Positions 50,765 to 55,950 of a stretch of 64,000 bases of DNA are shown here, in pieces. This DNA comes from an uncultured Erysipelotrichaceae bacterium. Its GTDB lineage: Bacteria; Bacillota_I; Bacilli_A; RFN20; CAG-826. The stretch is from NCBI GenBank assembly GCA_900316365.1, contig ONCO01000007.1:1-64000 (forward strand), in the 5' to 3' direction. Numbering within the stretch: position 1 is the stretch's first letter; each line of letters starts with the position of its first letter. The notes under the pieces were generated by a model. The model had not been told where the DNA came from. It searched no databases and worked only from the letters and a program-made list of their open reading frames with translations. Position numbers and translations under genes: made by a program.

Positions 50765-50930
50765 ACCCTTTCTTACCCTTTATTGGTAAGATAACTATGT
50801 ACCTGAAGAGGTACTTACCCATAGATTGTCGTTTGGGCATTGGTATCGGGTTCGTCCCGTTGCATAAAAACCACATACCATTTTCTGTGGGCGTAGTGTA
50901 TTCGCCTCTTTTGTGTTTATAAGGAGTTTT
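50765..50930 (+). ncRNA. Structured leader of rny, unassigned
   Basis: About 165 bases with several stems: CTTACC/GGTAAG (50772-50790), GTACC/GGTAC (50799-50814) nested inside CTATG/CATAG (50795-50824), CGGG/CCCG (50847-50859) and CCACA/TGTGG (50871-50890). A second CTTACC (50814-50819) could pair with the GGTAAG of the first hairpin instead, so two folds compete. I could not match it to a known riboswitch class. It may regulate rny, be an independent small RNA, or be promoter DNA. Confidence 0.45.
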
Positions 50931-50933
50931 CCA

Positions 50934-52520
50934 ATGTTAATACCTAACCTTATGGCATTAGAGATTGGACCAGCCCTCCTCATAGGGGGTATTGGCCTAA
51001 TCATCGGTGCCGGCATCTGCTTTCTTGTGATGTTTGTCTTATCCAAGAGCAAGAAAGACGCTGCCCTCCGCGACGCCAAACAAATCGTCCGCGATGCGAA
51101 AATCCAGGCTGAACGCATCACCAAGAACGCGGAAATCGATGCTAAGCAGGCCGCCTTCGAAGCTAGACAGCAAGCCGAGAACGATATCCGTTCCCGCAAA
51201 GGCGAAATCCAAGCCATCGAACAGAAGCTTTCCTTAAGAGAGCAGGCCATCGATCAAAGAGACGCCGCCCTCATCCAGAAGGAGAACGCTCTCGAAGCCA
51301 AGAGCGAATCCCTCGACACCCGCCTTGCTCAGGTTAAAAAGAAGAGCGAGGAGTTAGACGAGAAGATCGACCAGATCATCGTCGAACTCGAAAAGGTCTC
51401 CGGCATGTCCACCAAAGACGCCCATGACGAAATCATGGCCCGCGTCGAAAGCAAGATGTCGATGGAAATCGCCACCTACATCCATAACGCCGAAGACGAA
51501 GCTAAGGAAACCGCGGAAGCGAAAGCCCGTGATTTACTCAGCCTTGCTTGCGCCAAATACGCGCAGGACGTTACCACCGAAAGAACCGTATCCGTCGTCG
51601 CCCTTCCAAGCGATGAATTAAAAGGACGCATTATCGGCCGCGAAGGCCGTAACATCCAGGCCCTTGAGAAGAGCCTCGGCGTCGATCTCGTCGTCGATGA
51701 TACCCCAGAGGTCATCACCGTCTCCTGCTTCGACCCAATCCGTCGCGAAATCGCCCGCCGCACCCTTGAATACCTAATCAAGGACGGCCGCATCCAGCCA
51801 GGCAGAATCGAGGAAGTCTCTGCCAAGTGCAAGAAAGAAGTCGAAGAATCCTGCCAGAAGTATGGCGAAGATGCCATCTTCAAGCTCGGTCTTCCACGTA
51901 TCAACCGCGAACTCGTCGGCTACCTTGGCCGCCTCCATTTCCGTACTTCCTATGGTCAGAACGTTCTCGACCATTCCATGGAAGTCGCCTATCTCTGCGG
52001 CATCATGGCCGCTGAGCTCGGCCTTGACCAGCAGTTAGCCAAACGCGCTGGCTTGCTCCACGACATCGGTAAAGCCCTTGACTTCGAAGTCGAAGGCAGC
52101 CACGTTGAACTCGGTGTCCGCCTTGCTAAGAAGTACGGCGAACCTGACGTCGTCATCAATTCCATCGAAAGCCACCACGGTGATGCTGAAGCGAAATACG
52201 TTATCGCCCACCTCGTCCAGGCCGCTGATACCTTATCCGCCGCTCGCCCAGGCGCTAGAAGCGAGACCCTTGAGACCTACATCAAGAGAATCGAGCAGCT
52301 TGAGACCATCGCCAAATCCTTTGACGGTGTTGCCCAGGCCTTCGCGATGCAGTCTGGCCGCGAGATCCGCGTCATGGTCGCTCCTGAAAGAATCTCCGAT
52401 TCCGAAGCGCTCATCCTCTCCCAGAAGATGCGCGATAAGATCCAGAATGAGATGACCTATCCAGGACAGATCAAGATTTCCATCATCCGTGAATACCGCG
52501 CCGTCGAGACCGCGAAATAG
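50934..52520 (+). CDS. rny: RNase Y
   Basis: 528 residues from the ATG at 50934 (AAGGAG 8 bases before). N-terminal membrane helix (about 10-35), a long coiled coil (about 40-180), KH domain with GRIIGREGRNIQALEK, and HD domain with LLHDIGKAL and SHHGD. Main mRNA-decay endoribonuclease of Bacillota, membrane-anchored. It heads rny-ymdB-miaB-miaA after a structured leader. See the MiaB entry for a likely physical link to its specificity factors. Confidence 0.97.
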   Translation: MLIPNLMALEIGPALLIGGIGLIIGAGICFLVMFVLSKSKKDAALRDAKQIVRDAKIQAERITKNAEIDAKQAAFEARQQAENDIRSRKGEIQAIEQKLSLREQAIDQRDAALIQKENALEAKSESLDTRLAQVKKKSEELDEKIDQIIVELEKVSGMSTKDAHDEIMARVESKMSMEIATYIHNAEDEAKETAEAKARDLLSLACAKYAQDVTTERTVSVVALPSDELKGRIIGREGRNIQALEKSLGVDLVVDDTPEVITVSCFDPIRREIARRTLEYLIKDGRIQPGRIEEVSAKCKKEVEESCQKYGEDAIFKLGLPRINRELVGYLGRLHFRTSYGQNVLDHSMEVAYLCGIMAAELGLDQQLAKRAGLLHDIGKALDFEVEGSHVELGVRLAKKYGEPDVVINSIESHHGDAEAKYVIAHLVQAADTLSAARPGARSETLETYIKRIEQLETIAKSFDGVAQAFAMQSGREIRVMVAPERISDSEALILSQKMRDKIQNEMTYPGQIKISIIREYRAVETAK

Positions 52521-52534
52521 TCTCGGCTTAGAAA

Positions 52535-52548
52535 GGGGGACTACCCCC
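52535..52548 (+). promoter_or_regulatory. Ribosome site of ymdB inside a G5/C5 hairpin
   Basis: GGGGG-ACTA-CCCCC directly abuts the ATG at 52549. The Gs are the only Shine-Dalgarno candidate, so the hairpin could hide it unless ribosomes finishing rny melt it. Confidence 0.55.
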
Positions 52549-53361
52549 ATGAAAATTCTCTTCTTCGGTGACATCGTTGGGAGGCTCGGCCTAGAAGCCG
52601 TTGCCTCCCTTTTGCCTAAATTGGCAAAGGAATACGACGCCGATTTCATCATCGCCAATGGCGAGAACGTTTCCAAAGGTCGCGGCATCACCGAAAGCGA
52701 CTATGAAGCCTTGCTCGATGCCGGTGTTGATGCCGTAACGCTCGGCAATCATTGGAACGACAAAAAGCAGATCGTTAATTACATCGACTATGCCGATTGC
52801 CTGATTAGGCCTATCAACCTCATTGATTTCGATCACGGGGTCGGCTCGGCTGTCTTTGATTTAGATGGCATCCCCGTCCGCGTGACCAACATCCTTGGCC
52901 AAGCCTTCATGAAGGAGAACGTCAAATCGCCATATCAGGCGATGAATGAGTTATTCCTCGAGGAAGAGCCAACCGCGATACATATCGTCGATTACCACGC
53001 CGAATCGACATCGGAAAAACAAGTCTTCGCCCATTGGGCCGATGGCAAAGTCAGCGCGGTTATCGGCACGCACACCCATGTGCAGACTAATGATCCGATT
53101 ATCTTAAGTGGTGGAACCGGCTATCTCTCTGATGCCGGCATGTGCGGCGCCCATGATTCCATCATCGGCTTTACCCCGGATTCAGTCTTGAAGAAGATTG
53201 TCTATGGCGAGACTGAAGGCCGCTTCGAGGTGGCTGAAAAAGCTGAGACGCTCGTCTGCTTCGTTTACATCGAAATCGATGAATTAAGCGGAAAATGTAT
53301 TCGTATTGCACCTATTTCTTATATTGGAGGAAAATGTAGCCATGGCGAAAACCATCTTTGA
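52549..53361 (+). CDS. ymdB: YmdB-like calcineurin-type phosphodiesterase
   Basis: 270 residues. Metallophosphoesterase motifs: FFGDIVGRLG, NGENVSKG, GNHWND, DYHAE and GTHTHVQT. In B. subtilis YmdB is a 2',3'-cyclic nucleotide phosphodiesterase next to rny that affects biofilm and RNA decay. Start 28 bp after rny with its ribosome site in a hairpin. The C-terminal end (GGKCSHGENHL) overlaps the miaB start by 20 bp. Confidence 0.94.
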   Translation: MKILFFGDIVGRLGLEAVASLLPKLAKEYDADFIIANGENVSKGRGITESDYEALLDAGVDAVTLGNHWNDKKQIVNYIDYADCLIRPINLIDFDHGVGSAVFDLDGIPVRVTNILGQAFMKENVKSPYQAMNELFLEEEPTAIHIVDYHAESTSEKQVFAHWADGKVSAVIGTHTHVQTNDPIILSGGTGYLSDAGMCGAHDSIIGFTPDSVLKKIVYGETEGRFEVAEKAETLVCFVYIEIDELSGKCIRIAPISYIGGKCSHGENHL

Positions 53362-55087
53362 TTCTTTACCAGACATGAGCAAGGCGCGTGACCGCGTCAA
53401 GAAACCAGAGCTCATTTTCGACGACGTCTTAGTTAGCCCAAGGCTTGCCTCTTATGGCAAAGGACGTAAATTCATTATCAAGACCTTTGGCTGCCAGGCC
53501 AATGTTAGAGATGAGGAAATCCTTTCCGGCTACCTTGAAAAGGCTGGCATGGTCAGGACTGATAATGAGAATGAGGCCGGAATGGTCATCATCAATACCT
53601 GCGCGGTAAGAGAAAACGCCGAAGACAAAGTCTATGGCGAGATCGGTAACTATAAGAAGAGGGCCAAGGAAGACCCATCTTTCTCTTTAGCCATCTGCGG
53701 CTGCATGATGCAGGAAGAAGGAGTGGCGGAGAAACTCATCAAGAGCTATCCATATATCTCCGTTATTTTTGGTACCCACAATATCCATAAGATCCTTGAG
53801 TTGCTTGATTGGCACTTAAAGACCAACAAGACCATCGTCTCTATCCTTAGCTTTGCTGGAGACATCATTGAGAATCTCCCAAGCGATCGCGTCGATAAGC
53901 ATCAGGCTTTCGTCAATATCACCTATGGTTGCGATAAGTTCTGCACCTATTGCATCGTCCCATATACCCGCGGCAGAGAAAGATCGAGACCTTTGGACGT
54001 CATCCTCAAGGAATGCAAAGAACTCGTTGACGCTGGCTACGCCCAGATTACCCTTTTGGGCCAAAACGTTAACTCCTATGGCAAAGACTTCAAAGACGGG
54101 ACTAGCTTTGCTACTTGCTTAGAGGCAGTGGCCAAACTTGGTATCCCACGTCTTCGCTTCATGACCAGCCATCCATGGGATTTCAGCGATGAGATGTTAG
54201 ATGTCATCGCCCGTTATCCAAACATCATGAAATGCATCCATCTTCCAGTCCAATCCGGCAGCAGCGAAGTGCTTAAACTGATGGGCAGAAGATATAGCCG
54301 TGAGCAATATCTCGATTTGGTTAAGAGAATCAAAACGAAGATTCCAGGCGTCGCCCTTACTACCGACATCATCGTCGGCTTCCCGAATGAGACCGCGGAG
54401 CAGTTTGAAGACACCATGACCTTATGCGAAGAGGTCCGTTATGACTCCGCTTTCACCTTCATCTATTCCCCACGTAAAGGCACTCCAGCGGCCAAGATGG
54501 TCGACAATGTCGATGACAAAACCAAGCACGAACGTTTCGACCGCCTTTTAAAGATTATCGAAGAGACCACCAACGAAGCTTCGGCCAAACTTGTTGGTCA
54601 GATTGTTCCTGTCTTAGTCTCTGGCCCATCTAAGAAGAACCCGGAAATCCTTTCTGGCTATACCGAAGGCAGCAAGCTCGTTAACTTCAAAGGCCCGGCC
54701 TATCTTGAAGGCGAGATCGTTGACCTCAAGATCGTCGAGAATCATTGCCATTATGTCGTCGGCGAACTCCTCGAAGATCCTTTATTAATCAAAGCGAGAA
54801 GCCTTAAGAAAGCCTTAAACAAAGAAAAGGCCGTCGCTGAATTCCTTTCTTTAGAAAAACAGATCGAGGAAGATGAAGAACTCATCTCTCTCCGTAAGGA
54901 AATCCAAAGCGCCCAGAAGAAGATGACTGCCTCCATGAATGGCGACGATTCTGGCTATATCAAGGCAAAAGAGGCCTACTTGTCATTAAAAAAGCGTTAT
55001 GAGGAACATCCATTAGTCAAAAATCATGAGGCTCTTCATGATGAAGTCGAAGCAATCCTTTTAGAGGTAAAAGAAGCACTTAAATGA
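53342..55087 (+). CDS. miaB: tRNA ms2i6A37 methylthiotransferase MiaB with C-terminal YlbF/YmcA (Ric)-like domain
   Basis: 581 residues, longer than MiaB alone (about 440-510). UPF0004 domain with Cys51, Cys87 and Cys121; radical-SAM Cys197, Cys201, Cys204 in YGCDKFCTYC; then a TRAM domain to about 475. The last 100 residues are a charged helical domain (EEDEELISLRKEIQSAQKK, KAKEAYLSLKKRYEEHPLVK, then ...EVEAILLEVKEAL) resembling YlbF/YmcA proteins. In B. subtilis ymcA lies just after miaB (ymcB). The tail has no Cys. The start ATG at 53342 has GGAGG ahead; the frame start at 53306 lies in ymdB. miaA overlaps the end by 4 bp. Confidence 0.93.
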   Translation: MAKTIFDSLPDMSKARDRVKKPELIFDDVLVSPRLASYGKGRKFIIKTFGCQANVRDEEILSGYLEKAGMVRTDNENEAGMVIINTCAVRENAEDKVYGEIGNYKKRAKEDPSFSLAICGCMMQEEGVAEKLIKSYPYISVIFGTHNIHKILELLDWHLKTNKTIVSILSFAGDIIENLPSDRVDKHQAFVNITYGCDKFCTYCIVPYTRGRERSRPLDVILKECKELVDAGYAQITLLGQNVNSYGKDFKDGTSFATCLEAVAKLGIPRLRFMTSHPWDFSDEMLDVIARYPNIMKCIHLPVQSGSSEVLKLMGRRYSREQYLDLVKRIKTKIPGVALTTDIIVGFPNETAEQFEDTMTLCEEVRYDSAFTFIYSPRKGTPAAKMVDNVDDKTKHERFDRLLKIIEETTNEASAKLVGQIVPVLVSGPSKKNPEILSGYTEGSKLVNFKGPAYLEGEIVDLKIVENHCHYVVGELLEDPLLIKARSLKKALNKEKAVAEFLSLEKQIEEDEELISLRKEIQSAQKKMTASMNGDDSGYIKAKEAYLSLKKRYEEHPLVKNHEALHDEVEAILLEVKEALK

Positions 55088-55950
55088 TTATCGTAATCGC
55101 GGGAGCAACTGGCAGCGGAAAAAGCCATTTGGCGGTCGAACTCGCCAAGCGGATCGACGGCGAAGTAATTAACGCCGACGCTTTTCAGGTTTACCAAGAA
55201 CTCTCCATCGCGACTGCCAAACCTTCTATGGAGATGAGGAAAGAAGTCCCTCACCATCTTTTCGATTTTGTTCCGTTAACCGAGGAGTATAACGTTTATC
55301 GTTATCAGCAGGACCTCCGTGCCGTCTTAAAGGACGTCATTGCTAGAGGCAAGACCCCAATTATTGCTGGCGGCACCGGTTTATATATCCGCGCGGGACT
55401 ATTTGACTACGATTTCAGCGAGACTGACCATCCTGATATGAGTGAGTACGACGCCTTAAGCGATGAGCAACTCTATCAGAAGCTTTGGGAAATCGATGAG
55501 GAGTCCGCGAAAGCCATTCATCCGCATAACCGCGTCCGCGTCCGTAGGGCAATTGAGATATTTCTCTCCTCTGGAAGAAAAAAATCCGAAATGCTTAATG
55601 AGCAGAAACATGAGCCAATCTACCCAGTCAAATTCTTTGGGTTAAAGCCTGAACGTGAAGAGCTCTACCAGAAGGTCGAGAAGCGCGTTGACCAAATGTT
55701 TGAAGAAGGATTAGTGGAAGAAGACACCGCGTTGATAAAGAAATACGGTACATCTCCCCGTGCTTTTAGAGCTATCGGCGTCAAAGAGCTTTTCCCATAC
55801 CTTGAAGGAAAGGCCTCTTTAGAGTCCGTAAAAGATGAAATTAAGAAGAACACCAGGCATTACGTTAAGCGTCAGGACACCTTCTTCGCCCACCAGTTTG
55901 AAATCACATGGGTTTCTTCCATCGAAGAAATTCTTTCTTCGTCCTTGTAA
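55084..55950 (+). CDS. miaA: tRNA dimethylallyltransferase MiaA
   Basis: 288 residues. P-loop AGATGSGKSHLAVEL, DADAFQVY-type block (NADAFQVYQEL), IIAGGTGLYIRAG, and the RVRRAIEIF block. Adds the isopentenyl group to A37, the substrate MiaB then thiomethylates, so the overlapping miaB-miaA genes encode successive steps. NADAFQVY differs from the common NADSMQVY. Start within the last codons of miaB. Confidence 0.96.
   Translation: MIIVIAGATGSGKSHLAVELAKRIDGEVINADAFQVYQELSIATAKPSMEMRKEVPHHLFDFVPLTEEYNVYRYQQDLRAVLKDVIARGKTPIIAGGTGLYIRAGLFDYDFSETDHPDMSEYDALSDEQLYQKLWEIDEESAKAIHPHNRVRVRRAIEIFLSSGRKKSEMLNEQKHEPIYPVKFFGLKPEREELYQKVEKRVDQMFEEGLVEEDTALIKKYGTSPRAFRAIGVKELFPYLEGKASLESVKDEIKKNTRHYVKRQDTFFAHQFEITWVSSIEEILSSSL

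Follow-up and report, generated by a model that had tools for sequence, protein, structure and literature searches.

In the 64,000-nucleotide stretch of bacterial DNA analysed here (the window), the tail that follows a complete MiaB enzyme is RicA itself, joined to the C terminus of MiaB in one polypeptide. MiaB is the tRNA-2-methylthio-N6-dimethylallyladenosine synthase, which completes a tRNA modification, and RicA is a small protein that assists RNase Y in the cleavage of particular mRNAs. Both parts are known and the adjacency of their genes has already been remarked on. In the open-access literature we found no description of MiaB fused to RicA (YmcA), though such an architecture may well be listed in automatic domain databases.

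The fusion gene and its neighbours

The first-pass annotation gave the gene order as rny, ymdB, miaB with its tail and miaA, which is right according to the matches to TIGR03319, TIGR00282, TIGR01574 and TIGR00174. The features are:

50913..52520, plus strand: rny, encoding the 535-aa ribonuclease Y (TIGR03319 equivalog; score 675.6 bits, cut-off 454)
52489..53361, plus strand: ymdB-like metallophosphoesterase gene (TIGR00282, 255.0 bits against 254.15)
53342..55087, plus strand: miaB-ricA fusion gene, 581 aa from ATG 53342
53468..54772, plus strand: MiaB enzyme part (UPF0004, radical SAM, TRAM)
54773..55084, plus strand: RicA (YmcA) domain, five helices, no Cys (Pfam PF06133; PDB profile search; AlphaFold; fold search)
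55084..55950, plus strand: miaA, tRNA dimethylallyltransferase (TIGR00174, 278.8 bits)

The frame of the fusion gene is open back to TTG 53306, which would give 593 aa, and closes with the stop codon TGA at 55085-55087; of the two starts, ATG 53342 is the likelier. Numbered on the 593-aa frame, the match to TIGR01574 spans residues 55-487 (514.6 bits, cut-off 355.3), TRAM lies at 428-489, and Com_YlbF (PF06133) takes up 496-592, corresponding to nt 54791-55081. MiaB does continue, as proposed in the first pass, for about 100 residues beyond TRAM in one open frame, as a helical domain that matches Com_YlbF. The ATG of miaA overlaps the stop codon of the fusion gene (AAATGA), and for the ymdB-like gene, where the family match begins at residue 21, the real start is probably ATG 52549.

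The enzyme part resembles MiaB (YmcB; TIGR01574) in its full set of three domains and six Fe-S cysteines, with miaA adjacent, and differs from the usual MiaB in the extra C-terminal RicA domain. The six cysteines, three in the N-terminal domain and three in the radical-SAM CxxxCxxC motif, are invariant in 49 fused proteins. The predicted structure places about four residues between the last TRAM strand and the RicA domain, a linker short enough that the model would put RicA next to the tRNA-binding TRAM domain.

Both halves are under constraint. In the closest pairs dN/dS is 0.01-0.07 for MiaB and 0.03-0.16 for the tail, pairs further apart being saturated, and the values for the tail argue for purifying selection that keeps it as a protein. 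The tail evolves about twice as fast as MiaB; in one pair the identity is 57% for the tail against 85% for MiaB.

The tail is RicA

A likeness to YlbF and YmcA proteins had been noticed from the letters alone, and it holds as a profile match: the tail scores 32.4 bits within the whole protein and 37.1 bits as a separate sequence against PF06133, for which the curated cut-off is 23.9 bits. The same profile matches 62 of 65 members of the RicA set at an E value of 0.01. When the profile built from these 65 fused and unfused RicA domains is searched against the PDB, B. subtilis RicA comes first (6PRH at 7.4e-9, 2PIH at 1.3e-8), and RicF is found at 2.7e-5.

The predicted fold agrees with this assignment. 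AlphaFold models the tail as five helices with a pLDDT of 95.8, in line with the Com_YlbF fold of five helices and an alpha3-alpha4 flap, and the crystal structure of RicA also has five helices (PMC6751060). The top ten Foldseek matches to the model are all Com_YlbF structures, with RicA at ranks 1, 2 and 4. A second structure aligner gives RicA a Z score of 11.1-11.4, followed by 8.5 and 8.4 for further Com_YlbF structures and 8.2 for the best unrelated chain; note that middling Z scores are common for helical bundles, and the fold is supporting evidence to a case carried by the sequence profile. The comparison with RicA and RicF models raised in the first-pass annotation yields a RicA fold, with RicA above the unrelated helical proteins, and not a generic coiled coil.

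A tree of 99 Com_YlbF proteins, which rests on a short alignment, places RicA and RicF on opposite sides of one branch (SH-aLRT 91), so that the label RicA or RicF changes once, and groups the fused tails with the RicA proteins encoded next to miaB. Profile, tree and synteny together rule out that the tail is RicF instead of RicA. The top conserved positions common to the fused and free RicA domains are P83, N87, Y/F27, L18, L106 and Y72.

The tail shares with B. subtilis RicA (YmcA; 2PIH, 6PRH, 6PRK) the Com_YlbF family and the five-helix fold, as well as the position right after miaB and the co-occurrence with RicF, RicT and RNase Y. Unlike that protein, which is free and contributes its C-terminal C141 to cluster 2 (PMC6751060), it is part of MiaB and has no Cys.

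Distribution of the fusion

The survey comprised 224 genomes of the family and two further entries. One open frame runs through MiaB and RicA in at least 62 of the family genomes, 29 of which belong to the genus of the window itself (g1), 30 to g9, two to g6 and one to g195; g1 and g9 are related, and nearly all of their members are fused. The fusion is also present in named relatives (L004-L013), mostly rumen, gut and faecal MAGs of Bacilli. With at least 59 fused genomes in the main clade, a frameshift from assembly or sequencing is ruled out there.

In the unfused relatives within the family, ricA starts inside the miaB stop codon or a few bases after it. Among the unfused named loci, a RicA-like ORF is located downstream of miaB in 65 of 70 cases, nearly always directly, an adjacency that was noted earlier, only as a remark, in the 2019 paper on the Ric structures (PMC6751060). 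Five loci (L025, L029, L043, L048 and L075, mostly labelled Erysipelotrichaceae, L075 being Dielma) have no RicA-like ORF within 2.5 kb after miaB.

Apparent repeated origin

The fusion apparently arose more than once. On a tree of the MiaB core, computed with the tail left out, the label fused or unfused needs five changes, all of them forced by strongly supported branches, and a single clade for all fused genes is rejected with p-AU 6e-64. As far as the tree can tell, miaB and ricA were apparently fused at least four separate times. In the simplest history the ancestor of g1 and g9 acquired the fusion, the pair fused later in three further lineages (G184, G287 and G430) and split again in one (G474), where each of the three later fusions and the split is represented by one assembly. 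Of the genomes in the window's genus, only G474 (L149/L254) has miaB and ricA out of frame with each other at the junction, through either a return to separate genes or an indel in the assembly.

The junctions in relatives suggest how little is needed for such a change. At L176 and L178 the junction reads AAT GAA TAA, where the start codon ATG of ricA lies across the miaB stop codon in the +1 frame, and in G044 (L250), which belongs to another family of the class, miaB and ricA share a frame and are separated by a single TAA, with the ATG of ricA immediately after it. G044 was rejected as a fused case on reading this junction, because the TAA separates the two frames. Since miaB and ricA overlap or abut in the relatives, a single indel or loss of a stop codon is sufficient for fusion. 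As judged from gene arrangement, the junctions show that the fusion arose by the merging of two overlapping or abutting neighbour genes.

Other Ric components

A search of the window genome for separate ricA, ricF and ricT, which had been proposed together with the original reading of the tail, recovered ricF and ricT and no separate ricA. In this genome, which is 93.7% complete, the matches to the Com_YlbF profile are the tail and one 124-aa RicF only; at that completeness a hidden free ricA is conceivable, and the same pattern of two matches is seen in near-complete relatives, e.g., genome G052. The 124-aa ricF sits in the order def, ricF, rsmD, coaD, which resembles the B. subtilis order, ylbF-rsmD-coaD. 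The ricT gene, which matches the NCBI RicT family, follows holB, as yaaT (ricT) does in B. subtilis.

All but two of 80 genomes (78 of 80) have RicT; the exceptions, G548 and G567 (79% and 84% complete), are both fused. RicF was sought by profile in 24 genomes, nearly all of them fused, that had been picked because RicF was weak or missing in a simple search, or as comparisons. The profile recovers it in 23, leaving the fused genome G454 (92% complete) as the one in which it was not found by this search; an apparent loss of RicF from some fused genomes is thus mostly an artefact of sensitivity. In gene content the system resembles RicAFT (the Y-complex), with genes for each of the three subunits and for RNase Y. 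It differs from B. subtilis RicAFT in that RicA is tethered to MiaB and the ligands of cluster 2 are mostly gone from RicA and RicF.

Fe-S ligands

In B. subtilis, cluster 2 is held by RicT C167, RicF C134 and C146, and RicA C141, cluster 1 is held by RicT alone (PMC6751060), and a stable complex of RicT with RNase Y needs both clusters (PMC10470536). The first-pass annotation had reported a tail without Cys that could not itself ligate the Ric clusters. The absence stands in the sequence, where no equivalent of C141 exists and the RicA tail ends after helix 5 with no C-terminal extension. It is however not peculiar to the fusion, for unfused RicA proteins of the family also lack the C-terminal Cys tail, and on the same ground we reject the loss of Cys as a consequence of fusion.

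The RicF of the window genome has one C-terminal Cys, where the B. subtilis protein has C134 and C146; most relatives have none or one, and at most one or two are found. The six Cys of RicT are conserved in 30 of 30 relatives and are located at 166, 171, 172, 203, 208 and 209 in the open frame of the window genome. Viewed across the family, the RicA ligand and most RicF ligands of cluster 2 are lost and the RicT cysteines are all kept (ricF L220-L249, ricT L191-L219).

These ligand patterns suggest that the family as a whole probably lacks cluster 2 or ligates it in another way; cluster 1, which needs only RicT, can be kept. Because the RicA cysteine of cluster 2 is absent, the complex must differ in some way from B. 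subtilis RicAFT, and since both clusters are needed in B. subtilis, the step at which RicT is handed over may differ in this family. A Ric system that apparently lacks most ligands of cluster 2 and keeps all RicT cysteines would be a natural test of what this cluster does.

What the fusion may do

Judging from the genes, the protein is probably a bifunctional MiaB-RicA whose tail serves as the RicA subunit of the RNase Y specificity complex. The MiaB part would thiomethylate A37 of the tRNA that is the product of MiaA, while the RicA part would pair with RicF via helices 1, 2 and 5 and help to load RicT on RNase Y, leading to cleavage of selected mRNAs. The simplest consequence would be expression of MiaB and RicA at a constant 1:1 ratio, with all RicA in the cell attached to MiaB and a tRNA-modifying enzyme carried along by any RicAFT complex. 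The faster evolution of the tail, the missing cluster-2 cysteine, the fused genomes in which RicF (G454) or RicT (G548, G567) was not found and the incompleteness of the window genome weigh against this reading. It is possible that tRNA thiomethylation is in this way tied to mRNA processing, as the first-pass annotation had suggested, but what the sequence gives is covalent linkage, not regulation.

A stronger form of the same explanation is that the tether was selected, either so that thiomethylation or the iron and SAM status sensed through the MiaB Fe-S clusters controls the specificity of RNase Y, or so that RicA travels with MiaB on tRNA or ribosomes. That these two genes fused at least four times, each time in this order and apparently independently given the rejection of one clade, speaks for such coupling, as do the adjacency of the two genes across Bacilli described above and the retention of the fusion in nearly all members of two genera. 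However, adjacent genes that overlap merge more readily than any others, a single indel or altered stop codon being enough, and the fusion may recur simply for that reason; outside the main clade there are three fusions only, with one assembled genome each. We consider selected coupling possible but rather doubtful. The opposite reading, a near-neutral tether in which the merged frame of two co-translated genes is tolerated, the halves work as before and the link does no more than equalize their expression, has something close to an even chance, though short of it. It is favoured by the junctions of L176, L178 and G044, where one indel or stop loss would be enough, and is less easily reconciled with a fusion that persists in nearly the whole two-genus clade, with one apparent split, and recurs elsewhere.

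It is improbable that MiaB has recruited the domain to help in oligomerisation or tRNA binding and that the domain no longer serves RNase Y. Its position beside the tRNA-binding TRAM domain, its faster evolution and its missing cluster-2 Cys would all fit such a change, but RicT and RicF are kept at the frequencies given above with no other RicA, many conserved residues are common to the fused and free domains, and the loss of Cys, being common to unfused RicA, is no sign of takeover. We find it quite improbable, too, that the proteins are fused on paper only, with RicA made from an internal start or released by proteolysis from the roughly 65-kDa full-length chain. In 34 of 52 fused genes the interval from -10 to +15 codons around the junction does contain an in-frame ATG or a start codon preceded by a good Shine-Dalgarno sequence, and some relatives may make free RicA from an internal start; but in the window gene this interval is devoid of in-frame ATG, GTG and TTG codons, most of the other starts fall in the last TRAM strand without a clear Shine-Dalgarno sequence, and the short predicted linker offers proteolysis no obvious cleavable loop. 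Finally, charged helical sequence can draw weak matches to unrelated helical proteins, so a generic coiled coil, or an assembly frameshift that mimics a fusion, has to be considered. With the curated cut-off passed, RicA best by both sequence and fold and an open fusion frame in many genomes, this explanation is vanishingly improbable; it is refuted for the main clade and possible for the single-genome cases G430, G184 and G287.

Returning to the bifunctional MiaB-RicA, repeated fusion with RicF, RicT and RNase Y all kept is gene-fusion evidence of a functional link, and it bears on why miaB and ricA are neighbours in so many Bacilli. The most far-reaching version, which we regard as doubtful, is that the recurrent fusion couples a radical-SAM Fe-S tRNA enzyme to the RNase Y specificity complex, so that tRNA modification or the state of the MiaB clusters (iron, SAM, oxygen) would steer mRNA cleavage. 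If it were true, it would suggest that free MiaB and RicA touch in other Bacilli. The single polypeptide provides a means to test a connection between tRNA modification and mRNA processing.

Long C-terminal tails of RicT

Long RicT tails are found in 19 of 26 genomes of the fused lineages against 2 of 24 others, a suggestive association with the fusion that is not significant when corrected for kinship, with four independent pairs only. In the window genome, the C-terminal tail encoded by ricT (L003 1312-2427) is long and of low complexity, with many N, Q, R, G and H residues, and such a tail is also present in relatives of the genus (L279-L298).
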